From: Deltaproteobacteria bacterium PRO3
GTDB taxonomy: Bacteria; UBA10199; DSSB01
Reading direction: 5' to 3'
Assembly (NCBI GenBank): GCA_030263375.1
Contig: SZOV01000016.1
Location: forward strand, 1 to 44,393
Length of the DNA: 44,393 nt
The notes beneath the pieces were generated by a model. That model did no database searches and was not told the origin of the DNA. It saw nothing but the letters and a program-made list of their open reading frames with translations. This document shows positions 28,674-41,071 of this stretch, one piece after another; position 1 is the stretch's first letter; every line of letters starts with the position of its first letter. Position numbers and translations under genes: made by a program.

Positions 28674-29680
28674 CAGGCACCTCGGCTCGAGGGTTTTTTC
28701 ACGAGGTAGACGAAAAAGGGCCCACCGATCAGGGCGGTGAGGACGCCGACCGGGATCTGCGTCTGGTAATCGGAGCCGCTTAAGACCGTGCGCGCGGCCA
28801 AGTCGGCCAAGACGAGGAAGGCGGCGCCGAACAGGGCCGAGGCGGGCAGCAGCAGGCGGTGGTCGGAACCGAGCCTGAGCCGCACCATGTGTGGGATGAA
28901 GAGGCCGACGAAGCCGATCAGGCCCGAGAGGCTGACCGTCGCGCCGATCATGAGGGAGGCGGCGAAGAAGATGTGGCGGCGGAATTTCTCGACGTCGAGG
29001 CCCAGGTATTGGGCGCTGGAGTCGCCCAGGGCCATCAGGTTCATTTTTCCGGCGTGCAGGAAGAGAAGCAGGAATCCGGCCAGGACGAAGCCGCCCGTCA
29101 CCGCGATCTTCCCGTAGCTCTCGGCCTCGAGCGAGCCGACCATGAGGTACCAAATGCGGTGCGCCTGCTCGAAGCTGACCAGCGAGTTGATGAACATGAT
29201 GAGCGCGAAGCTGAAGGCGTTGAAGATGACGCCGGTGAGCAGCAGGGTGTAGACGGGCAGGCGGCCCTTGGTCTGGGCGATCCAGTAGATCAGCAGCAGC
29301 GAGGCGAGGGCGGAGACGAAGGCCACCGAGCTCACCCAGGTGAAGGCGAGCCCCAGCGAGACCGCGACCACGCTCCCGAGCGCGGCGCCGCCGGAGACGC
29401 CCAGGATGTAAGGGTCGGCCATCGGGTTGCGCAGCAGGCTCTGGAAGGCGACGCCGCCGCTGGAGAGGGCGAAGCCGACGATGAGGCCCAGCAGGACCCG
29501 CGGCAGCCGCGAGTAGAAGAGGATGTCGTGCTCGGGGCTCGCGGTATCGCCCCAGGCCGCCGCCAGATCGAGGCGCCCGCCGCCGAAGGCCAGGCTTAGG
29601 GCGACCGCCGCGGCGAGCAGGAGCACCAGGCCGGAGAGGACGACGGCGAAGCGGCGGAAGTTGAGGGGCGCGGCGTTCAT
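28670..29680 (-). CDS. ABC importer permease, BtuC/FecCD type
   Basis: A 336-residue integral membrane protein with about ten TM helices. RLPRVLLGLIVGFALSSGG and QSLLRNPMADPYILGVSGGA are hallmark motifs of FecCD/BtuC permeases; GFVGLFIPHMVRLRLGSDHR is the ATPase-contact region. The start at 29680 (MNAAPLNF) is used; the 13 upstream codons are less likely. The matching binding protein is not next to it but probably the gene at 40157. No cobalamin riboswitch was found in the 257-base leader, which instead holds three REP-like repeats. Confidence 0.93.
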   Translation of the reverse strand: MNAAPLNFRRFAVVLSGLVLLLAAAVALSLAFGGGRLDLAAAWGDTASPEHDILFYSRLPRVLLGLIVGFALSSGGVAFQSLLRNPMADPYILGVSGGAALGSVVAVSLGLAFTWVSSVAFVSALASLLLIYWIAQTKGRLPVYTLLLTGVIFNAFSFALIMFINSLVSFEQAHRIWYLMVGSLEAESYGKIAVTGGFVLAGFLLLFLHAGKMNLMALGDSSAQYLGLDVEKFRRHIFFAASLMIGATVSLSGLIGFVGLFIPHMVRLRLGSDHRLLLPASALFGAAFLVLADLAARTVLSGSDYQTQIPVGVLTALIGGPFFVYLVKKPSSRGAW

Positions 29681-29767
29681 GGGTGTAGAAGTCGTAGCAC
29701 CACCCTGGGTGCCGGGCAAATCGGAAGTTTTTCGGGAAGAATTCGATTATTTTAAGGTGAATCGATT

Positions 29768-29794
29768 GTAGGGGCGAACCTTGTGTTCGCCCTC
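29768..29794. repeat. REP-like palindrome, variant type, forward copy
   Basis: GTAGGGGCGAAC, a short centre and GTTCGCCCTC. Its reverse complement recurs at 29893-29918, so the two form a large inverted pair around the 28-bp palindrome. Confidence 0.75.
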
Positions 29795-29817
29795 CCCTGG
29801 GGTATGTCGCGGCAACT

Positions 29818-29845
29818 GTAGGGGCCGTTCGCGAACGGCCCCTAC
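29818..29845. repeat. REP-like 28-bp palindrome, copy 3
   Basis: Identical to copies 1 and 2. It is centred between the two oppositely oriented variant repeats, giving a BIME-like cluster of three elements in 150 bases. Confidence 0.85.
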
Positions 29846-29892
29846 GGCTTCCGCAAAGGCCCGAAATTCCGAATTCTAAACAACCGCCGCGA

Positions 29893-29918
29893 AGGGCGAA
29901 CACAAGGTTCGCCCCTAC
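29893..29918. repeat. REP-like palindrome, variant type, inverted copy
   Basis: AGGGCGAACACAAGG followed by TTCGCCCCTAC, the reverse complement of 29768-29794 apart from the outermost bases. It lies 19 bases after the stop of the ABC-F gene. Confidence 0.75.
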
Positions 29919-29937
29919 GGAGTAATCCCAAACGACC

Positions 29938-31761
29938 CTAAGCCTTGGCCTCCAGCTCCGCCCAACGCCGGTACAGGGCCTCGACCTCGCCCTCCGCCGC
30001 CGCGAGTTTTTCGCTCAACTCCAGTAACAGCGCCGCCTGGCTGGCGTTGGCGGGCGATTCGAGCTCGGCGCGCAGGGCGGCGGCCTTCGCCTCCGCCTCG
30101 TGGATCTTGGCCTCCATGCCGTCGAACTCCCGCTGTTCCAAGTAGCTCAATTTTTTCTTCTTCTCCGCTTCTTCGCGATTGGCGGCGGCCGCCTCGCCGC
30201 GCGGCGGCGGGGCCTCCCATTTCAGCGCCGCGTGCCAATCCTCCCACTGCTCCAACGAGGCGAAGGCGACGATCTGTCCCGCGGCCGAGCTGCCCGGAGG
30301 CCCGAAGGCGAGGATGCGGTTGGCGATCTCGTGCAGAAAGTAGCGATCGTGGCTCACCAACAGGACCGCCCCGGGGAATTCCGCGAGGCAGTTTCTCAGG
30401 ACCTCCAGCGTGGCGATGTCGAGATCGTTGGTCGGCTCGTCCAAAACCAGGACGTTCGCGGGGCGCAGCATCAGCTTGGCGATCAGCAGGCGGCTCTGCT
30501 CGCCGCCGCTCAAGCGCCCCACCGGCATCTCCATCTGCGCCGGGTTGAAGAGAAAGCGGTCGAGATAGCCGCGGACGTGGACCGGATTTTCGCGGTATTC
30601 GACGTGGTCGCCGGCCGGGCAGAGCGTCTTGATCAGGCTTAGGCCGGGATCGAGGGTCTCGCGGTTCTGCTCGAAGTAGGCGACGCGCAGCGCCTCGGCG
30701 TGTCGAACCGTCCCCGCGTCCGGCGGCTCTTGGCCCAACAGGACGCGCAGCAGCGTGGATTTTCCGCAGCCGTTGGGGCCGATCAGGCCGAGGCGGCTCT
30801 GCGGGGTGACCAGCAGGTCCAGTCCGGAGAACAAGGGCCGGCCGCCGAGGGACTTCGCCACGCCTTGCGCCTCGATCAACTTTTTCGGGCGTTTCTCTTC
30901 CGCGGCGAAGTCGATGGCGACGCCGCGCGTCCGGTTGCGCGCGCTGACCTGCTCCAATTCTTCGGCGATCTCTCCGGCGCGCTGGATGCGGGCCTGCTGC
31001 TTCGTCCCGCGGGCCTTGGGGCCGCGGCGCAGCCACTCGGTCTCGCGGCGCAGGGTGTTCTTCAGGACGAGCTCGCGGCGCTCCTGCGCGGCGCGCAGTT
31101 GCTCCTTGGCCTCCAAATAGCCGGCGTAGTCCCCGGGGACGCTCAGGATGCCTTCCGGCAAGGCGGGGTCCAGCTCGAGGATGCGGGTGGCGACCCGTTG
31201 GAGGAAGAGTCGGTCGTGGGTGATGGTCAGGCTGGCGAAGGGCGCCTTGGCGAGCAGTCCTTCCAGCCAGAGGATGCTCTCGACGTCGAGGTGGTTGGTC
31301 GGCTCGTCCAGCAGCAGGAGATCGGGGCGCTTGGCCAGCTCGCGGGCCAGCGCGACGCGTTTCTTCCAACCGCCGGAGAGCTCGGAAACCCGCGTGGCCG
31401 GACCGACGCCCTCCCGCCCGTCCAGCGAGAGCTTGGAGAGCCACTCCTGCAGCGTGGCCTGGAACTCCCAATCTTCGGGATCGGGATGCGCCTCGAGGAT
31501 CGCCGACTCGACGGTCGCCTCGGGGGCGAAGGCTGGCACTTGCTCCAGCCAGCCGACGCGTAGCCCGCGGCGCACGGAGATCTCGCCGGCGTCGGGCCGC
31601 TCGCGGCCCGCGAGCAGGCTCAGCAGGGTGCTCTTGCCCGCGCCGTTGGGGCCGATCAGGCCGACGTGCTCGCCTTCCTCGAGGGCGAAGCTCAAGTCCC
31701 GAAACAGCGGCCGGGCCCCGTAGGATTTGGCGATTTTTTGCGCGGCGATCAGTATCGGCAT
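29938..31761 (-). CDS. ABC-F family ATPase (Uup-like)
   Basis: A 607-residue soluble protein with two ABC domains and no membrane part. The first half has GPNGAGKST, LSGGWKKR and LLLLDEPTNHLD; the second has GPNGCGKST, LSGGEQSR and VLVLDEPTNDLD. The linker with WLRRGPKARGTKQQARIQ is the P-site tRNA-interaction motif. A C-terminal coiled coil (about 535-607) points to Uup rather than EttA. ABC-F proteins act on ribosomes or stalled translation. The start at 31761 (MPILIAAQ) is chosen over an upstream in-frame ATG that would overlap the riboswitch promoter. Confidence 0.94.
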   Translation of the reverse strand: MPILIAAQKIAKSYGARPLFRDLSFALEEGEHVGLIGPNGAGKSTLLSLLAGRERPDAGEISVRRGLRVGWLEQVPAFAPEATVESAILEAHPDPEDWEFQATLQEWLSKLSLDGREGVGPATRVSELSGGWKKRVALARELAKRPDLLLLDEPTNHLDVESILWLEGLLAKAPFASLTITHDRLFLQRVATRILELDPALPEGILSVPGDYAGYLEAKEQLRAAQERRELVLKNTLRRETEWLRRGPKARGTKQQARIQRAGEIAEELEQVSARNRTRGVAIDFAAEEKRPKKLIEAQGVAKSLGGRPLFSGLDLLVTPQSRLGLIGPNGCGKSTLLRVLLGQEPPDAGTVRHAEALRVAYFEQNRETLDPGLSLIKTLCPAGDHVEYRENPVHVRGYLDRFLFNPAQMEMPVGRLSGGEQSRLLIAKLMLRPANVLVLDEPTNDLDIATLEVLRNCLAEFPGAVLLVSHDRYFLHEIANRILAFGPPGSSAAGQIVAFASLEQWEDWHAALKWEAPPPRGEAAAANREEAEKKKKLSYLEQREFDGMEAKIHEAEAKAAALRAELESPANASQAALLLELSEKLAAAEGEVEALYRRWAELEAKA

Positions 31762-31835
31762 GGCGGGGGATCTCTCGCATGTCCTTGGGGTTTTTCCAAG
31801 CCCCGCGCGGCCTCGGAAAAACCCGGAAATGCATC

Positions 31836-31864
31836 TTGTCACTCGGCGGGGACGGCGCTACACT
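31836..31864 (+). promoter_or_regulatory. Promoter of the c-di-GMP aptamer RNA
   Basis: TTGTCA (31836-31841) and TACACT (31859-31864) are 17 bases apart, giving a predicted start near 31871, about 40 bases before the aptamer core. This rightward promoter lies in the gap between the ABC-F start and the carH stop. Confidence 0.65.
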
Positions 31865-31904
31865 TTTCAAGTCGGACGCCGTTGACGGGAGTCCGGACGT
31901 CCGG

Positions 31905-31980
31905 CCGAAAAAGGCAAACTCCGAGCAATCGGAGGACGCAAAGCCTCCGGTCCCTAGGGGATAGCGGGGCTGCCAAAAGC
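31905..31980 (+). ncRNA. Cyclic di-GMP-I (GEMM) riboswitch aptamer, free-standing
   Basis: All core elements of the c-di-GMP-I class occur in order: GGCAAAC (31913-31919), a P2 stem TCCGA/TCGGA closed by a GCAA tetraloop (GNRA, as needed for docking), GGACGCAAAGCC (31934-31945), TCCGG with the P3 loop, and TAGCGGGGCTGCC (31962-31974). The aptamer is followed by a short stem (31985-32001) and a strong terminator at 32008-32046. No rightward gene follows: the next gene, carH, is on the opposite strand, and the next rightward gene starts more than 1.1 kb away. The predicted RNA of about 175 bases resembles the merRNA of Bdellovibrio, an abundant stand-alone c-di-GMP-binding riboswitch RNA. Confidence 0.92.
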
Positions 31981-32007
31981 TTCCGCCTGGCTTTTTCAGG
32001 CCGACGC

Positions 32008-32046
32008 AACCCACCTACCGTAAGCGCTAGGTGGGTTTTGGTTTTT
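32008..32046 (+). terminator. Rho-independent terminator of the c-di-GMP aptamer RNA
   Basis: AACCCACCTA (32008-32017) pairs with TAGGTGGGTT (32028-32037), then TTG and TTTTT. The T run is only on the plus strand, so it serves the riboswitch RNA and not carH. Its last bases overlap the carH stop codon. Confidence 0.9.
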
Positions 32047-32980
32047 AGAGCTTTTCTCGCAAGTATTTCCGAAACAGGCCGAGATCGCCGATCACCCGTC
32101 CTCTTCCCGTCTCGACCGCCTCGCGAAAACGCTCCGCGGCGCGTCCCCCGCATACCCAAGCCGTATCTTTCGGCAAGAGACGCGACAGCCTTTGCAGTTC
32201 GGCTGCGAGTTCGGTCTCTTCCGCGGGAAAGACGATGCTGAGCGCCAACAGCCGCGCCCCGGCATTGCGGACCGCGGCCGCGATCTCTTCGGCGGGGAGA
32301 TTCGCGCCGAGGTAGATCACCTTCCATCCCTCGATGGCCGCCATCTTGGCGGCGAGCAAGGCACCCAGCTCGTGGATCTGGCCGGCCGGCGTTGCGACGA
32401 CCACGCTGGCTCCGGCTCCGGCCTCGGGATAGGCCGGTTTGAGACCGCCGACGAAGCTTCGCATCACCGAGGAGGCGAGGTGCTCCTGCGCGATGCGGAA
32501 ATCGCCGCGCTGCCAGCGCTCGCCGACCGCCTCGAGCAGGGGCGAGACGATCTCCTCGAGCAGGACCTGTTGGCTGAAGGCCAGTGAGGCGCGGTCGAGC
32601 AGGTCTTCCAACCCCTTGCCGTCCAATCCTTCGATCTTTTCCAGACAGCCTTCGAGATAGGGGAGCGGGTCTTCTCGGGAGGAGGGGGGCTTTTCGGTCG
32701 CGGCTTGGGGTTTGGTGGCCGACATCGTCGGGGGCAGGTTTGCCGCCAGGGCCGCAAGATCGGCATCCGGCAGTTGGGCGATCTGGCTGATGCTGTGCCC
32801 GAAGTCGGTGAGACGGGCGAGCCGCTCGAGCCGAGCGACCTCCGCCTCGCTGTACATCCTCCGATTGGTCGGGCTGCGGTCGGGGGTCAGGGCCCCGTAG
32901 CGACGCTCCCAAACCCGAATCACGTGCGGGCTTAGGCCCGTTCGCTTGACCACCCATTTCATCGGATACCGAGTTTCCAC
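32045..32980 (-). CDS. carH: CarH/LitR-type MerR regulator with adenosylcobalamin-binding domain
   Basis: A 311-residue transcription regulator. An N-terminal MerR helix-turn-helix (VVKRTGLSPHVIRVWERRYGAL, Arg-Arg-Tyr motif) is followed by a linker. A four-helix bundle has W156-x9-E166-H167, the same spacing as Trp131/Glu141/His142 in Thermus CarH. A B12-binding Rossmann domain has QIHELG (His203 as lower ligand) and YLGANLP. This residue set indicates light sensing through AdoCbl: a tetramer represses in the dark and light breaks it. It is divergent from the fasciclin gene, whose promoter carries matching operator repeats. Family evidence is strong; photoreception is inferred. Confidence 0.93.
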   Translation of the reverse strand: METRYPMKWVVKRTGLSPHVIRVWERRYGALTPDRSPTNRRMYSEAEVARLERLARLTDFGHSISQIAQLPDADLAALAANLPPTMSATKPQAATEKPPSSREDPLPYLEGCLEKIEGLDGKGLEDLLDRASLAFSQQVLLEEIVSPLLEAVGERWQRGDFRIAQEHLASSVMRSFVGGLKPAYPEAGAGASVVVATPAGQIHELGALLAAKMAAIEGWKVIYLGANLPAEEIAAAVRNAGARLLALSIVFPAEETELAAELQRLSRLLPKDTAWVCGGRAAERFREAVETGRGRVIGDLGLFRKYLREKL

Positions 32981-33020
32981 GCTCCTACCTTAGGCGAAAA
33001 AGCAAATCCTGACAATATTT

Positions 33021-33061
33021 TACACAAAATATAGAAATAATTTAGACAAAATATTGACAAA
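33021..33061 (+). promoter_or_regulatory. Candidate CarH operator: four 8-base motifs at 11-bp spacing
   Basis: TACACAAA (33021), TAGAAATA (33032), TAGACAAA (33043) and TTGACAAA (33054) start exactly 11 bp apart. The fourth covers the -35 box of the fasciclin promoter. Thermus CarH binds 11-bp direct repeats overlapping a -35 element, so the layout fits repression by the adjacent carH product. Confidence 0.75.
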
Positions 33062-33081
33062 TACTCGTAAGTGGGTAGGAT
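33054..33081 (+). promoter_or_regulatory. Fasciclin gene promoter
   Basis: TTGACA (33054-33059) and TAGGAT (33076-33081), 16 bases apart, predict a start near 33088 and a leader of about 110 bases. Confidence 0.75.
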
Positions 33082-33143
33082 GACCGAAGTAGAACCACCA
33101 AACTGCTCCATAGAACGATCGGGTAAACTCACGGAGCAGGGGC

Positions 33144-33174
33144 GCCTGCCGAGGTCGAAAGACCTTCGGCAGGC
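33144..33174 (+). other. Strong hairpin in fasciclin mRNA leader
   Basis: GCCTGCCGAGGTC and GACCTTCGGCAGGC pair with a single bulge around a GAAA tetraloop, just before the ribosome site (AAGGAG). A second pairing, CTGCTCC with GGAGCAG, lies upstream (about 33102-33140). No known riboswitch class was recognised. The T content after the stem is weak, so mRNA stabilisation or translational control fits better than termination. Confidence 0.65.
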
Positions 33175-33197
33175 CCATTTATAAAAAGGAGCACGTC

Positions 33198-33716
33198 ATG
33201 AAGATCCCGAAATTACTCATATTTTCTGCTTTTGCCCTAAGTCTGGCCGCCCTTCCCACCCCTCGAGCGGCCTGGGCCGGAGACGCGAAACCCGCGGCCT
33301 CCGCCGGCCCCGCCGACATCGTGGACACCGCGGTGGCGGCGGGCAATTTCAAGACCCTGGCCACCGCCCTGCAGGCCGCGGGCCTGATCGAAACCCTCAA
33401 GGGACCTGGCCCCTTCACCGTCTTTGCGCCGACCGATGAGGCCTTCGCAAAGCTGCCGGCGGGGGCCCTCGAGGGCCTGCTCAAGGACAAGGCGAAGCTG
33501 AGCGCCGTCCTGACCTATCATGTGGTTCCGGGTATGGTGACGGCCTCCGAGGTCGTCAAATTGAAAGAGGCCAAGACGGTCAACGGCCAGGCCGCCAAGA
33601 TCACCGTCCAGGGCAGCGAGGTGATGGTGGATGGAGCCAAGGTGGTCAAGACCGACATCAAGACCAAGAACGGCGTGATCCATGTGATTGACGCGGTGAT
33701 TTTGCCCAAGTCCTGA
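33198..33716 (+). CDS. Secreted fasciclin (FAS1)-domain protein
   Basis: A 172-residue exported protein: signal peptide (cut near AAWA, residue 27) then one FAS1 domain. Hallmarks are [48 protein letters not shown] and a C-terminal [16 protein letters not shown]1 proteins act in adhesion or cell-surface interactions. The gene has its own promoter under probable CarH control, a structured leader, and a strong terminator 34 bases after the stop, so it is a single-gene unit. Its role in a light response is unknown. Confidence 0.94.
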
Positions 33717-33750
33717 TTCTTCGCCTCCTTAAGCAAGACCGAGTACGCTC

Positions 33751-33784
33751 CGGCGCCCGTACCTAAAGACGGGCGCCGTTTTTT
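33751..33784 (+). terminator. Rho-independent terminator of fasciclin gene
   Basis: CGGCGCCCGT (33751-33760) pairs perfectly with ACGGGCGCCG (33769-33778), loop of eight, then six T. Confidence 0.95.
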
Positions 33785-34091
33785 ATTCTTGCGGGCAAGG
33801 GGAAATGGCTTCCCATTCGCATCTCCCTTGATTTAGATTGAAAGGACGCAGCTGGAACACGCGGGCGAGAAAGAGGTGGTTTTGGCCCGCCCGCGATGTC
33901 CAATGACCCAGGCGGCTTCGCATCGGGGTTCGCCCCACCCGCGGACATGGGGCGAGGTCGTCCTTACACCTCCCCTTCGCCGCAAGGCCAAGGGGATGTG
34001 GTGGGGTGGATATAAATAACCACCCAACACCAACCAATTTGTCGCTTGCAGGATGGCGGCGTTCCGGCGGCGTTCGCAGGCCAAGGCCGGG
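33785..34091 (+). other. Hairpin-rich leader before reverse transcriptase
   Basis: About 300 bases without a convincing gene. Visible stems: CGCGGGCG/CGCCCGCG (33860-33867 with 33888-33895), GGGG-TTCG-CCCC (33925-33936) in competition with CGCCCCA/TGGGGCG (33931-33954), CCCCTT/AAGGGG (33972-33995), and GGGTGG/CCACCC around an AT-rich loop (34004-34025). Such density is compatible with a non-coding RNA partner of the reverse transcriptase, but could also be a long structured 5' leader. TATAAA in the last loop is a weak -10 candidate. Confidence 0.45.
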
Positions 34092-35564
34092 ATGGGGAAA
34101 AGCTTTTCTATCCCGGCCTCACCACCCTTTAAGGTCTCCTTGGGTAAGCTCTTCGCTCAGATCGTCTCTCCCGAAAACATTCGCGAGGCCTACCGCCTGA
34201 TCCGCGAAAAGCACTACGACCCCTATCTTCAGTATTACAAGAAGTTCGCCTCGGGGATCGACGGCGTGGACCTGCGCGACTTCGACGACAACCTGGAAGC
34301 GCAGCTTAAGGCCTGCCGCGATTTTCTGCTTGCCGAAGACCGGCCCTTTTATCCCCAGATCCTGCGCAAGGTGCCCAAGGACACGCCGGGGAAGTTTCGC
34401 GAGATCTACCTCGTGGCCCTGCGCGACAAGGTGACGCAGAAGGCGATGGCCCTGCCCTTGGTCGAGCGCTTCGAGAAGCTTTACTACCCGAATCTTTTTT
34501 CCTATCGGAACGGGCGCTCCTACGGCACCATTGCCGCCGCGCGCCGCGTTCGCAAGCTGCTGCAGGCGCATGACGGAAGGCTCTTCGTCTACAAGACCGA
34601 CATTGCGGATTACTTCGACAATATCGACCAGGGCCGCTTGTTGGACATGCTGCGCGAGGCGCTGCCCGACGAGCCGGAAGTCCGGGGCCTGGTGCGGCAG
34701 TTCGTGCATCAGCGGAAGTTTTGGGACGGGCATCTGATCTCGCCCATTCGCGGCATCCCCGCCGGCTCGAGCCTGTCGACCGTCTTCGCCAACTTCTACC
34801 TCTGGCCCTTGGACCGCGAGATGTTCCGCGGCGACTACCATTACCTGCGTTACGGCGACGACATCCTATTGCTGGATCCGGATCCGGCGAGGATCGAGGC
34901 CGGGAGCCGCCGCATCGCCGAGGTCTTGGCCGGCCACGGGCTCAGCTCCTCGCCGCACAAGACCCTGCGCAAGGCCCCGGGCGAGGCCTTCGAGTACCTG
35001 GGCTACCGTTTCGCGGAGGGAAAGATCCACATTGGGAGCGTCGCGATGGGGCGCTTCAAGCAGTGGGCCTACGAGCAGCTGGTCGTCGACCGTTACCGCG
35101 ACTATTCCAACAAGACCGACGAGGAGCGCCGGGCCTTGCTGAAGAAGATCATCCTCGACATCAATACCGGCCTCGCCGCGACCTTGGGCCTGAGGCAGCT
35201 GCCCTGGGTGCGCGCCTTCCCGGTGGTCGACGACGACTCGAGCTTCCGCCGGATGGACGCCTTCATCAAGGACCGCATCCGCCTCACCATCCTGCGCCGA
35301 CCCTCGCCGCGCAACCGGCGGTTGATCCCCGAGGCCTGGTTCCGCGAGTTGGGCTACAAGAGCCTGACCGGCGCCTACCACCGCATCCTGCGCCGCCGCA
35401 GTCTGGCGCCCTACCGGGGCTGGCGGCGCTACTTCGGGACGAACTTCGAGATGTTCCTCCAGGGGCGGGAGAAGAAAGAGGGACTTGCGCGAAAATGGGC
35501 CAACTTGAAGGGCAAGTTGCGCTACGTTCGGCAGGCGCTGAACGGGGAGATCAAGTTCGACTGA
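34092..35564 (+). CDS. Stand-alone reverse transcriptase (group II-like, unassigned class)
   Basis: A 490-residue RNA-directed DNA polymerase. RT0-like N-terminus (SPENIREAYRLIREKHYDP, ASGIDGVDLRDF), RT2 (IYLVALRDKVTQKAM), RT3 (SYRNGRSYGT), motif A TDIADYFDNID (Asp170), motif B GIPAGSSLS (from 221), active site YGDD (254-257) and YLGYRF are all present. The C-terminal 200 residues are basic and thumb-like, with no HNH or integrase part. Motif B is not the SQ form of diversity-generating RTs, and the retron NAxxH and VTG motifs are absent. Start 34092 has AAGG upstream; ATG 34053 is an alternative. A domesticated or defence-type (DRT/UG) RT is the best guess. Confidence 0.9.
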   Translation: MGKSFSIPASPPFKVSLGKLFAQIVSPENIREAYRLIREKHYDPYLQYYKKFASGIDGVDLRDFDDNLEAQLKACRDFLLAEDRPFYPQILRKVPKDTPGKFREIYLVALRDKVTQKAMALPLVERFEKLYYPNLFSYRNGRSYGTIAAARRVRKLLQAHDGRLFVYKTDIADYFDNIDQGRLLDMLREALPDEPEVRGLVRQFVHQRKFWDGHLISPIRGIPAGSSLSTVFANFYLWPLDREMFRGDYHYLRYGDDILLLDPDPARIEAGSRRIAEVLAGHGLSSSPHKTLRKAPGEAFEYLGYRFAEGKIHIGSVAMGRFKQWAYEQLVVDRYRDYSNKTDEERRALLKKIILDINTGLAATLGLRQLPWVRAFPVVDDDSSFRRMDAFIKDRIRLTILRRPSPRNRRLIPEAWFRELGYKSLTGAYHRILRRRSLAPYRGWRRYFGTNFEMFLQGREKKEGLARKWANLKGKLRYVRQALNGEIKFD

Positions 35565-35583
35565 GGAAGGGACCTCCGTCCGC

Positions 35584-37455
35584 TCAGAGGGCGGGGACGG
35601 GGATAGGCTCTTCCCCGCCCTGCGCGAGCAGCTCGCGGTAATAGGCGGATCGGGCGATCAAGTCCTCGTGCCGGCCCTGGGCCTCCACGGTGCCCTTCTT
35701 TAAGACCACGACCCAATCGGGATGCAGCTGGGGCAGCGGACGGTGCGAGATGATCAGCACCGTCTTGTTTCGAAAATGTTCGGCGATGATCTTTAATACC
35801 CCGCGCTCGGAGCGGTGGTCCAGCGAGGCGGTCGGCTCGTCCATCAGGACGATCGGCGCGTCCTTGGCGGCGGCGCGCATCAGCGCCAGCTTCTGCAGCT
35901 CGCCGCGCGAGTAGCCCAGGCCCTCCGCGCCGACCTTCTGCCCGAACTTGCGCTCCAGCGAGGCGATGAAGCGATTGAGCTCCATCTGCCGCCCCAGGTC
36001 GAGGGCCTTCTCGAGCTGGGCCTCCATGTCGGGCCCCTTGTTCCCCATTTCGCCGAAGAAGACGTTGCCCAGGATCGTGTCCTCGACGTGGAGCTGGTCC
36101 TGGGCCACCACGCTGAAGTAGGCGCGTAGGTCGTCCAGGCGCATCTTGCGGATGTTCACCCCGTCGATCCGGATGCTTCCGCGGTTGCCGTCGTAGAGGC
36201 GCATCAATAAATTCAGCAGGGTGCTCTTGCCCGCGCCGCTCTGGCCGACGATCAGGACCTTCTGCCCCGGTTCGGCGCGGAAGCTGACGTTACGCAGCCC
36301 GCCGATCCCGCGGGCGTATTGGAACCAGACGCCGAGGAATTCGACCCTGCCCTCGCGGCGTTCCGGTACGACGGGGTGCTCGGGCTCGGCGATCGGGGTG
36401 GTGTTTTCGAAGATCGAAAAGACGGTCCGAATGCCGATCAAGCCCGCCTGCAGGTAAGCCGTCGCGCGGACGAACTGCGAGAGCGGCCGGAACAGCAGCC
36501 CCAGGCAGATCATGTAGGCCAGGACCTCGCCGTGACTCAGCTGCCCTTGGATGATCTGGCGCCCGCCGTACCACAGCGCCGCCAGCAGCACGGCGGAGGC
36601 GAGGAAGCCGATCAGGATGGCGTTGCCGGCGTAGACCATCGTGCGTTCGATGCGGAATTTCTTGTCTTGATTCAAGACCTCCTCGAAGCGGTCGCCCTCG
36701 CGCAGCCCGCCGCCGAAGATCTGGAAGAGCTTGGCGGAGTGGTAGGCGCGGTCCAGGATTTTCAGGATTTGGTCGTTCTTGGTCTGCAACTGGGAGGCGA
36801 CCTCGGCCATGTAGCGGTTGAGGCGGCGGATGTAGAGGACGACGAAGGGCACGAGGGCGGAGAGGATCAGCGTCAGCCGCCAGTCGATGACGGTGGCGGC
36901 GACGGTAAGTAAAAGGATGTTTACCGACTCGCGCAGACAGACATAGGCGAAGGTCTCGACCAAGACCTTGATCATCATGACGCTGTAGGTGAGCTTGGAG
37001 ACCAGCTTGCCGGCGGCGTTGTTTTCGAAATAGGTGAGCGGCAGGCGCATCTGGTAGCGGAACAGGTCGCGGCGGATCTCGGTGACCAGGTCCATCGAGA
37101 AGGTCGTGACCAGGCGCTGCTCGTAATAGCGGAGGACGGCGTGGAGCAGGTAGATCCCAAGTCCGCCCAGGATCACCCAGTTGAGCAGGGCGTAGTCCTG
37201 CTTGGGGACGATGTAATCCAAGACGAACCGCGACAGAAAGGGCAAGGCGAGGCCGAGGACGCCGCCGAGGACGATCAAGGCCGAGATGCCGAGGATCGTC
37301 TTCTTGTGGCGGCCGACGTAGCCCAAAAAACGCGCCCAGTAGATTTGGTCGCGCAGGGCCTTGAAGCGCTTGGCGCGGTCGCGGCGCTTGGTTTCGCGCG
37401 CGGCGCGATGACGTTCGCGGTGGGTCGGCTTTTTGAAAAAGGGGAGCGTGATCAA
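35584..37455 (-). CDS. ABC exporter, fused permease and ATPase (MsbA/MDR-like)
   Basis: A 623-residue half-transporter. A charged N-terminal tail (1-40, Arg/Lys-rich) leads to six TM helices (about 50-340) and one ABC domain. Walker A GQSGAGKST, Walker B IVLMDEPTASLD, D-loop and H-loop IISHR are intact. The signature is YSRGELQ instead of LSGGQ, a clear deviation. It likely acts as a homodimer exporting lipid, peptide or drug. It is convergent with the reverse transcriptase gene (19 bases between stops) and follows the SGNH gene by 33 bases. Confidence 0.93.
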   Translation of the reverse strand: MITLPFFKKPTHRERHRAARETKRRDRAKRFKALRDQIYWARFLGYVGRHKKTILGISALIVLGGVLGLALPFLSRFVLDYIVPKQDYALLNWVILGGLGIYLLHAVLRYYEQRLVTTFSMDLVTEIRRDLFRYQMRLPLTYFENNAAGKLVSKLTYSVMMIKVLVETFAYVCLRESVNILLLTVAATVIDWRLTLILSALVPFVVLYIRRLNRYMAEVASQLQTKNDQILKILDRAYHSAKLFQIFGGGLREGDRFEEVLNQDKKFRIERTMVYAGNAILIGFLASAVLLAALWYGGRQIIQGQLSHGEVLAYMICLGLLFRPLSQFVRATAYLQAGLIGIRTVFSIFENTTPIAEPEHPVVPERREGRVEFLGVWFQYARGIGGLRNVSFRAEPGQKVLIVGQSGAGKSTLLNLLMRLYDGNRGSIRIDGVNIRKMRLDDLRAYFSVVAQDQLHVEDTILGNVFFGEMGNKGPDMEAQLEKALDLGRQMELNRFIASLERKFGQKVGAEGLGYSRGELQKLALMRAAAKDAPIVLMDEPTASLDHRSERGVLKIIAEHFRNKTVLIISHRPLPQLHPDWVVVLKKGTVEAQGRHEDLIARSAYYRELLAQGGEEPIPVPAL

Positions 37456-37488
37456 TGCCGCGAAAACTCGCCCATCCCCGCGGGGGAG

Positions 37489-38853
37489 TCAAGGGGCGAT
37501 CGCCAGTGCCTTCATTTCCTGAATCGTCTCCGGCGTCCCGATAATCCCCACCCCGGGATCCGTATCGTCCGCGTCGCGGAATTGGAAGAGCAGCTGCACG
37601 ATGGGCCGGACGGGCTCGTAGCTCGGCCCGCGCGGGAAGCCGTCGCCGTCGGCGTCGACGTAGGGGTCGTTGAGGCGTACCTGCGAGACCTCGATCTCGG
37701 GGACCGAGGCGCCGAGGGCCTGGTTGATCGCGCGGATGAAGAGATTGGCCGTATAGGCGTGCCCGCTGTGCGAGAAGTGCACGCCGTCCAGGCAGAAGAA
37801 CCCGCCCGCGCCCCATTCGGCGGTGTAGGTCGTGCCCTCGACGGTCTGCGGCGCTCGCAGAGAGGCGTTCAGGTCGACGAGATGCAGGGAGTGCTTCGCC
37901 GTCAGCTCGGCGAGGATTTGGTTCAAGGCGGCAATCCGCGCCTGGATCGGTGCCGCTTCTTCGGCGGTCAGGACCGAGCTGTCCACCAGGTGCTCCGTCA
38001 GCGTCGCCTCCCACTCGCGGCCGGCGAGTAAATCGGTGTAGATACGCAGGGCGGCGGGGAGGCTCATCCGGGCGCCCTCCGGCAGACGGTCGGCGGGGAC
38101 CGTCAAGCCCGTCCAGCGTTTCACCGTCTCGCCCGAGACCAGGTAGGCGATCTGCGTGATGTCGGGGATGTTGCCGACGAAAACCTCTGCGCCGGTCGCG
38201 GCCAATTTCCCCAAGACAAAATCCATGTTCGCCCGGAATTCCTCCGGAGGCGTCATCGCCGCCGCGACGCCGGCGGACGTGTAATTCTCGTTGCCGATCT
38301 GGACCACCGAGCCCAGCACGTCGTTGTTGAGCCAAAGGGTCATGATCTTGGGCGTGGCGGGATTCGCGTCTTTCCATTTCTCTGCCAGCCAGAGCGCGGC
38401 ATCGAGCTGGCTGGTGGGCTCTCCGCGGTATTCGGAAAAGGCGATCGGCGCCAGGGTGCGGTCGCGGAGACTGCTCGCGGAGCTCAGCGCCTCGCCCGTG
38501 GCCTTGGTCTCGAAAATGCTCTTGGAGTCCTCGCCCGAGATGCCGAGGAGGGTGGGGATCTTGTCGGGGTTTTTGCGCGGCCCGTCGACCGCGAGCAGGG
38601 GCATGGTCAGCGTGCCGCCATAGGCCTTGGCGAGCTGCTTGGCGAGGATCGCCGCGTAGCTGTGCGGCTGGGTGTGCTCGTTGGTGGTGCCGTCTTGCAC
38701 CCCGGCGGCCAGGCTGTCGCCCAGGGCGACGTAGTTAAAGCTGGGCGAGGCCGGCGGCGCCGGGTTCTCCGGGGCGTTGGAGGCGCCTCCGCCGCAGGCC
38801 AGTAGAGACAAAGTGGCGAGGCCGGCGAGGGCCTTGGCGAAATTCCGTGACAT
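37489..38853 (-). CDS. SGNH/GDSL-hydrolase lipoprotein
   Basis: A 454-residue lipoprotein with lipobox LLAC (Cys20) and a Pro-rich linker. Block I GDSLAAG holds the nucleophile Ser47. TLWLNNDVLG supplies the Asn of block III, and DGVHFSHSGHA the catalytic Asp and His of block V. The C-terminal 110 residues (after IEVSQVRLND, with DADGDGFPRG, possibly calcium-binding) are an extension. The start at 38853 is chosen for the signal peptide; an upstream ATG at 38925 would bury it. The enzyme is probably an outer-membrane-facing esterase or lipase; substrate unknown. Confidence 0.92.
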   Translation of the reverse strand: MSRNFAKALAGLATLSLLACGGGASNAPENPAPPASPSFNYVALGDSLAAGVQDGTTNEHTQPHSYAAILAKQLAKAYGGTLTMPLLAVDGPRKNPDKIPTLLGISGEDSKSIFETKATGEALSSASSLRDRTLAPIAFSEYRGEPTSQLDAALWLAEKWKDANPATPKIMTLWLNNDVLGSVVQIGNENYTSAGVAAAMTPPEEFRANMDFVLGKLAATGAEVFVGNIPDITQIAYLVSGETVKRWTGLTVPADRLPEGARMSLPAALRIYTDLLAGREWEATLTEHLVDSSVLTAEEAAPIQARIAALNQILAELTAKHSLHLVDLNASLRAPQTVEGTTYTAEWGAGGFFCLDGVHFSHSGHAYTANLFIRAINQALGASVPEIEVSQVRLNDPYVDADGDGFPRGPSYEPVRPIVQLLFQFRDADDTDPGVGIIGTPETIQEMKALAIAP

Positions 38854-38987
38854 GGGATCCCCTCGAGAATTGCGGTGTCGTGGCGTGGGACGCTTATCGT
38901 CCGCGGGTCCACGGGATTGCGTCATTTCTTAGTTTTTGGAAGGATTCGGCAAGTACTACCTATGATTCCCTCGAACTTCCGTCGGGA

Positions 38988-39734
<747 letters not shown>

Positions 39735-39785
39735 GGCGGCTTCATAGCCGGAAGTCCCGATTCGTCAAATCAAAAATAACCGCGC

Positions 39786-40160
39786 TCAATCGCGGCCGTA
39801 ATAGGCCTTGGTCGGGGGTTGCAGCCAGTAGATCAGCAGCGGGACGCAGATCGGGATGAAGCAGGGGCTGCCCAGGCCCAGGCAGATCAGGATGATGTGG
39901 TAGATCCAGGCCCCCGGGGAACGCGGCAGGAAGAAGGTCGCGACGAAGACGCCGATCAGGGCCAGGCTCATCATGCCCAAAAAGACCAAGTAACCGGTCA
40001 TCAGCCAGGGAGGCGCGTCGGGCTCGACCATCCAATGCTTGGCGAAGACTAGCCCCAGGACGGAGAGGGCCAGCGTCAGGGTATAGATGAAGATCATGAC
40101 GGCGCAATAAAAGCGGTACCATTTGACGACGCCGGGCGTGGGGATGGCGGGAAGATTCAT
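39786..40160 (-). CDS. Small membrane protein of unknown function
   Basis: A 124-residue protein with four hydrophobic segments (about 13-38, 53-75, 82-95 and 98-112). The N-terminus PAIPTPGVVKWYRFYCAVM and the C-terminal YWLQPPTKAYYGRD are polar. No named family is recognised. Its start overlaps the stop of the binding-protein gene by four bases, so it is the last gene of the TPR-binding protein-membrane protein operon. Confidence 0.8.
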   Translation of the reverse strand: MNLPAIPTPGVVKWYRFYCAVMIFIYTLTLALSVLGLVFAKHWMVEPDAPPWLMTGYLVFLGMMSLALIGVFVATFFLPRSPGAWIYHIILICLGLGSPCFIPICVPLLIYWLQPPTKAYYGRD

Positions 40161-41071
40161 GGGGACCTCGGGTGCAGGAGCGTGAAGAGCCCGCGCAGCG
40201 TGGCCGGCAGGCTAGGCGCGGCGCGCATCGTCTCGATGTCGAGGGCGTGGATTTGGCCGTTCTTGACGGCGGGGATCGAAGGGAAATTTTTCCAAAAATC
40301 CGCCCTGCCCCGCTTCGCGGCCTCGCCGGCCTCCGAGCCCATCGCGAAGTCGAGGATAACGTCGGGCGCGGCGCGGATCAACAATTCCGTCGTGTAATAC
40401 GGGTATTTCAGGCGGCTCTCCCTGGCGACGTTCACCGCGCCGATATAGGCCCCCGCTTCGTCGAAGAAGTTGTTTCCCCCCGCCACGACCAGGGGCTGGT
40501 AGCCGACCACGTAGAGGACGCGTCGCTTCGGCACCGCCGCGGCCGCGGCCTTCAGGGCGGAGAGCTCCGCCCGCATCTTGGCGACGGTCGCCCGCGCCGC
40601 CTCGGCCTTGCCGAGCAAGGCGCCCAGGGCCTCGATCGAGCGCATCGTTTCTTCAAGGCCTGCGAAGCCCAGGGTGTCGACCTCGAAGCCCTGCGCCTGC
40701 AGCGCCGCGACCTCTTTGGGCGAGCTGTTCGCCGCGCTGCCCAGGGTCAGCACCGGCACGCCGCGCTCGAGGAGGAAGCGAATCTCCTTCTCCGATCCGT
40801 TTTCCTTCGTGCCGATCACCAGGTCGGGTTTTAGGCGCAGGATGGGCTCGGGAAAGGCCTTCAGGTAGTCCGCGACCTTGGGCAAGGCCTGCGCCGCCTC
40901 GGGGCGCCGGCACCATTGCGTGACGCCGACCACTTGGGCGCCGAGGCCCAGCTCGAAGAGGATTTCGGTCAAGTTGGGCTTGAGCGAGACGATGCGGGAA
41001 TAGGCGAAGGCGGGGAGGGCGGGCGCAAGCCAAAGCAGGACGGCGAGGGCCAAGCTGAGCGCCGCGCGCAT
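40157..41071 (-). CDS. Periplasmic cobalamin/iron-complex binding protein (BtuF-like)
   Basis: A 304-residue exported protein: signal peptide (cut near AFA, residue 22) and a class III binding-protein fold. RIVSLKPNLTEILFELGLGAQVVGVTQWC is the BtuF/FhuD-type start, with KPDLVIG and a long connecting helix (about 145-175). It probably delivers substrate to the BtuC/BtuD-type importer at 27891-29680, 11 kb away. The stop of the TPR gene lies one base before its start. An earlier ATG (41101) overlaps that gene and is rejected. Confidence 0.9.
   Translation of the reverse strand: MRAALSLALAVLLWLAPALPAFAYSRIVSLKPNLTEILFELGLGAQVVGVTQWCRRPEAAQALPKVADYLKAFPEPILRLKPDLVIGTKENGSEKEIRFLLERGVPVLTLGSAANSSPKEVAALQAQGFEVDTLGFAGLEETMRSIEALGALLGKAEAARATVAKMRAELSALKAAAAAVPKRRVLYVVGYQPLVVAGGNNFFDEAGAYIGAVNVARESRLKYPYYTTELLIRAAPDVILDFAMGSEAGEAAKRGRADFWKNFPSIPAVKNGQIHALDIETMRAAPSLPATLRGLFTLLHPRSP

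Follow-up and report, generated by a model that had tools for sequence, protein, structure and literature searches.

A stand-alone reverse transcriptase with a structured leader RNA, co-inherited with a convergent ABC exporter in a deep-branching bacterial phylum

Bacterial reverse transcriptase (RT) systems are known that pair the enzyme with a nuclease, a nitrilase, a SLATT pore or a toxin. Among them, the Class 2 DRTs (the DRT2, DRT9 and DRT10 type) synthesize repetitive cDNA from an RNA template and are active in phage defence. In DRT9 (UG28) and DRT10 (UG17), a noncoding RNA located upstream is bound and copied by the RT, and a SLATT membrane protein is sometimes or always present (PMC12483538, PMC12632851). 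The locus described here resembles these two systems in having an RT with structured RNA upstream and a membrane protein partner. It differs in that the RT belongs to another clade and scores lower against their models, the partner is an ABC exporter encoded convergently, and the leader is a putative template. ABC transporters were not mentioned in the RT and DRT papers retrieved by full-text searches, a set that does not include the main UG-classification paper, and we regard the novelty of an RT–exporter pairing as provisional.

The window is the whole stretch of DNA that was analyzed (44,393 nucleotides; contig SZOV01000016.1 of Deltaproteobacteria bacterium PRO3, assembly GCA_030263375.1). 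Coordinates refer to it unless another locus is named. The cassette and its flanks contain the following features.

33717–37488, both strands: whole cassette (leader RNA, RT, convergent exporter), 3,772 bases, bounded by the stop codons of the fasciclin and GDSL lipoprotein genes
33198–33716, forward: fasciclin-domain secreted protein, flanking, outside the cassette
33751–33784, forward: intrinsic terminator of the fasciclin gene (terminator scan; 10 bp stem plus T-run), the 5′ limit of the leader
33851–34091, forward: conserved part of the structured leader RNA, at least five helices
34035–34058, forward: longest perfectly conserved leader block, CAATTTGTCGCTTGCAGGATGGCG
34086–34119, forward: stable hairpin holding ATG 34092, flanked by a Shine-Dalgarno-like AAGG and conserved in the orthologue
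34092–35564, forward: reverse transcriptase RT1, alternative start TTG 34140
35584–37455, reverse: ABC exporter with a transmembrane and an ATPase domain
37489–38925, reverse: GDSL/SGNH lipoprotein, immediately upstream of the exporter on the same strand, flanking, outside the cassette

RT1 carries the motifs GIPAGSSLS (at 34752) and YGDD (34851–34862) and, judged from these, appears catalytically intact. RVT_1 is its sole Pfam match (8.7e-19). No endonuclease or maturase domain was found by the same search, which recovered the GIIM maturase domain in each of the four positive controls, all genuine group II RTs; GIIM is also absent from the paralogue RT2. The longest reading frame spans 34053–35564 on the forward strand. 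A start at 34053 is untenable because the orthologue has a 2-base, frame-changing gap and an in-frame stop at that place, and the true start is ATG 34092 or TTG 34140; strong protein conservation begins only at about 34140. RT1 is 76% identical to its sole orthologue, which is encoded by a metagenome-assembled genome (G001, 'Deltaproteobacteria bacterium' JAIOPF010000003). The dN/dS ratio of about 0.13 (dN 0.17, dS 1.33) is matched by about 0.15 for the exporter (dN 0.15, dS 0.96), values that indicate purifying selection on both genes alike. An earlier AlphaFold model of RT1 was set aside as too poor (pLDDT 53). The model used here has a usable core (palm pLDDT ∼90) and a poor C-terminal third. 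The solved folds nearest to this core are GsI-IIC (Z = 27.6), a DGR RT (27.5), G2L4 (26.2) and DRT9 (23.7).

The best PADLOC class model for RT1 is RT_UG26 (171 bits, 7.5e-51), with a match that runs from the thumb region almost to the model's end, and true UG26 members (in G136 and G138) score 499.6–510.6 bits. Only the G044 cousin described below and a fragment from G015 also preferred UG26 among 20 other RTs scanned, and no exporter lies beside the G015 RT within the 4.2 kb available. In a quick 45-sequence tree with several long branches, RT1 and RT2 fall together with UG26, the G044 tandem RT and an RT from Bdellovibrionales (SH-aLRT 81–89), and the group II RTs fall elsewhere. We take RT1 and RT2 to represent, with moderate support (SH-aLRT 81), a sister lineage of UG26 and not members of it; RT1 is 24–26% identical to UG26 proteins, and the UG26 loci examined, in two other genomes, have no exporter neighbour. 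The models for DRT9, DRT10 and DRT2 all scored below UG26 (80, 121 and 67 bits), and the NCBIfam Drt2 model gave 51.6 against a cut-off of 390, which places RT1 outside these three classes by sequence. Group II and group II-like RTs such as GsI-IIC and G2L4 are the nearest in fold, whereas RT1 has no maturase domain and no intron RNA and lies outside their clade. The initial annotation had described a stand-alone YGDD enzyme lacking the maturase-associated endonuclease and distinct from retron and diversity-generating RTs. All of this holds, and the tree placement it called for puts RT1 beside UG26 and outside the group II maturases.

Several other classes were considered and rejected. A group II intron remnant in the window was rejected: neither a GIIM domain nor an intron RNA or domain V in cis was found. 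Rfam intron families gave no match at the RT1 locus even at permissive thresholds, in a search that was positive at several group II RT loci, and only 19 bases separate the end of RT1 from the exporter stop codon (35584–35586), as had been noted from the sequence. Retrons share with the cassette a stand-alone RT, a noncoding RNA and a protein partner. The NAxxH and VTG motifs are absent from RT1, and the retron RT model scored 47 bits against 235. A repeat scan of 29000–41000 found no template/variable pair near the RT, as a diversity-generating retroelement would have; direct repeats of 39–79 bases sit in ABC-protein genes, and shorter ones in other genes. Nor does the locus fit a CRISPR-associated RT, as it lacks an adjacent cas1, cas2 or array. 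The neighbours are the fasciclin, exporter and GDSL genes, with no defence genes among them. Two scans of viral contigs for relatives of RT1 yielded none in the first and only distant RTs resembling other classes in the second; plasmids and phages likewise held no close relative, only distant RTs that were mostly of group II. As a separate observation, RT genes of Patescibacteria (L026–L033) have a (GA)n run between motifs A and B that encodes RERERE; the frame breaks there in several of them, possibly reflecting phase variation of the RT.

The leader sensibly starts at 33785 because it follows the fasciclin terminator, the stem part of which occupies 33751–33778 with the T-run after it. Conservation with the orthologue's leader (L022 4972–4733) begins at GCTGGAACACG and comes in blocks, with perfect runs of 16, 24 and 19 bases. 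The longest, CAATTTGTCGCTTGCAGGATGGCG, is predicted to be mostly unpaired over its first nine bases and is a candidate RT-binding or template segment. RNAalifold gave −100.7 kcal/mol for the two sequences compared (the window and its one orthologue), against −59.7 ± 4.4 kcal/mol for conservation-preserving column shuffles of the alignment (z = −9.2; 0/200). The leader by itself folds with z = −4.2 (100 shuffles) and the reverse strand of the alignment with z = −5.0. The controls, four windows from the coding part of the RT1 gene, gave −0.3 to +0.8. Doubly changed base pairs were no more frequent than in shuffles (5 versus 3.6 ± 1.9), so the case for structure rests on folding energy. The RT1 leader is a real structured RNA. 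The leader of RT2, compared with its G001 counterpart, is unlike it in sequence and gave z = −11.7, with 15 doubly changed pairs versus 7.7 ± 2.5. The initial annotation had counted at least four stems, which at least five helices bear out, and had held that lack of conservation in homologues would speak against it; the leader is conserved in the sole orthologue.

Structured RNA immediately upstream of the RT (z = −9.2 and −11.7) is thus a feature shared with Class 2 DRTs, and it could be either a separate noncoding RNA or a 5′ leader. No Rfam family matches the RT1 or the RT2 leader. A covariance model of the RT2 leader gave weak, non-significant hits on the RT1 leaders, and homology between the two was rejected, though the hits fall at the matching place just before the start codon. 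The 24-nt block was not found in the viral contigs searched, and short leader matches in contig C83 of the same genome (G000) and in G002 (C201) come down to a single 18-mer with one mismatch.

The initial annotation made no mention of a constant exporter partner, of a second cassette in the genome or of an empty site in a relative. The exporter is MsbA-like but scores below the cut-off of its nearest model (MsbA, 333.7 versus 602). Its ATPase signature reads YSRGE, and that of the second copy (L021 6960–8762) FSRGE, in place of the LSGGQ of ABC ATPases, a difference that may weaken or alter ATPase activity in both. Like RT1 and RT2 (43% identical), the exporters of the two cassettes in this genome are sister paralogues, with 54% identity along their full length; the next-best ABC protein of the genome matches the ATPase domain only, at 31%, and others match parts of it. 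Each RT copy has an exporter beside it in convergent orientation in four of four cases (G000 contigs C16 and C18, G001 contigs C28 and C95), the G001 RT2 gene being cut by contig ends so that its pair was read from two pieces. The 3′ ends in these pairs overlap or lie 19 bases apart; for RT2 (contig C18), also tail-to-tail with its exporter, the coding ends overlap by 92 bases. Because the orientation is convergent, RT and exporter do not share an operon.

The exporter subfamily occurs in two of 46 genomes of the phylum, two copies each, and these are precisely the genomes with this RT; the remaining 44 have neither. The two cassettes of G001 are close to each other and in inverted order (L022 3258–8940 and L023), which suggests an inverted duplication. 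An ABC-F gene lies beyond the second exporter there and near the first cassette in the window. This change of neighbour, with the inverted order, indicates that the cassettes moved yet stayed together. G004, a 99%-complete relative of the same family, has converging fasciclin and GDSL genes with 4 bases between their stops (L125 8337–8774 and 8779–10284). Nothing of the leader, RT or exporter was found in that genome, and the empty site corresponds exactly to 33717–37488. RT and exporter have thus been retained and duplicated as a pair, and a genome has either both or neither. Because only two genomes, of one genus, hold the close RT family, the pairings amount to about one duplication plus the case of G044.

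G044, from the same phylum, encodes an 812-residue protein with two RT domains (L041 4600–7038), the first with YSDN and the second degenerate. The next gene on the same strand is an ABC exporter, 25% identical to that of the window, which is suggestive support for an RT–exporter link but not proof. A complete ORF-less group II intron (domains I–VI; L041 3677–4350) lies between the upstream gene and the tandem RT. At the DNA level this intron is related to those of a different RT clade, and it is likely an insertion. The locus also adjoins RTX-repeat proteins.

Three further elements were noted. A c-di-GMP-I-GGC riboswitch at 31904–31978 (forward), on the strand of the RT and 1.9 kb upstream of it, faces no gene of its own; it may be a remnant of a former control region of the RT. 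In G001, a c-di-GMP-I riboswitch followed by a similar hairpin (L022 5245–5327, reverse) lies directly upstream of the RT1 leader on the same strand. An inverted repeat with 36-base arms, 89% complementary, occupies 29768–29918 in the window, between two ABC-type genes.

The reading we prefer, at about an even chance, is that the cassette is a three-component system of RT, leader RNA and ABC exporter working like Class 2 DRTs or retrons. The leader RNA folds into its conserved multi-helix structure, and the RT made from the same transcript would bind it. The RT would most likely copy part of the leader into short cDNA, in the manner of Class 2 DRTs and retrons. The dedicated exporter, encoded on the opposite strand, would be a partner in the membrane that either reacts to the RT–RNA(–cDNA) complex or is restrained by it. 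The system would probably act at the envelope as a stress or anti-phage switch, in a role like that of the SLATT protein in DRT10. That such a complex makes cDNA and acts through the exporter we infer from the anatomy of the cassette and from the published DRT9 and DRT10. As a more tentative idea, the RNA-templated cDNA, or a peptide it encodes, could be a signal, regulator or cargo of the exporter, in a system that in G001 follows a c-di-GMP riboswitch. The initial annotation had proposed an undescribed or defence-associated RT with an RNA partner. An RT of non-intron, non-retron and non-DGR type with a conserved leader RNA as partner or element stands; the defence association is more conjectural, with UG26, at 171 bits, as the nearest PADLOC model, no defence genes as neighbours and no close relative on a phage or plasmid.

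In group II introns, LtrA binds a hairpin of domain IVa, which the very stable hairpin around ATG 34092 recalls. The leader might accordingly be purely cis-regulatory, an RT-bound autoregulatory hairpin that hides the Shine-Dalgarno sequence and start codon, with the substrate of the RT elsewhere. Retention of this hairpin in the orthologue fits such a role, and in G001 at least, the riboswitch just upstream of the leader marks the 5′ region as regulatory. Against this, the structure extends over about 240 nt with several helices, its 24-nt invariant block lies apart from the start codon, and the RT2 leader is equally structured without a start-codon hairpin; we consider a purely regulatory leader somewhat unlikely. 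RT1 could instead be a decayed or trans-acting group II intron maturase with its intron RNA elsewhere. In favour, RT1 resembles group II RTs in fold and sequence, and the G044 cousin has an ORF-less intron directly upstream and a marginal maturase-domain match. Yet both RT1 and RT2 lack the GIIM domain seen in all controls, the NCBIfam maturase model gives 123.6 bits against a cut-off of 300, no intron RNA lies at the locus, and the G044 intron resembles those of another clade. This reading is very improbable.

RT and exporter could also be neighbours by history only, the RT having landed next to an exporter and both having been copied by a segmental duplication. Linkage without function could persist in a close family confined to one genus; the convergent orientation and the UG26 relatives without an exporter are compatible with this. 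Such an accident is harder to reconcile with the joint absence of both genes from 44 genomes, including the 99%-complete relative with its clean empty site, with the exporter beside the G044 cousin, and with the similar rates at which RT and exporter are conserved. We judge it improbable, though less so than a maturase.

If the three-component reading is true, reverse transcription would be tied, through a dedicated exporter partner, to membrane transport or to signalling, in a deep-branching phylum whose members are known from uncultured genomes. The locus allows a direct test of this claim, because it has a natural second copy, one orthologue, and a relative in which the site is empty.
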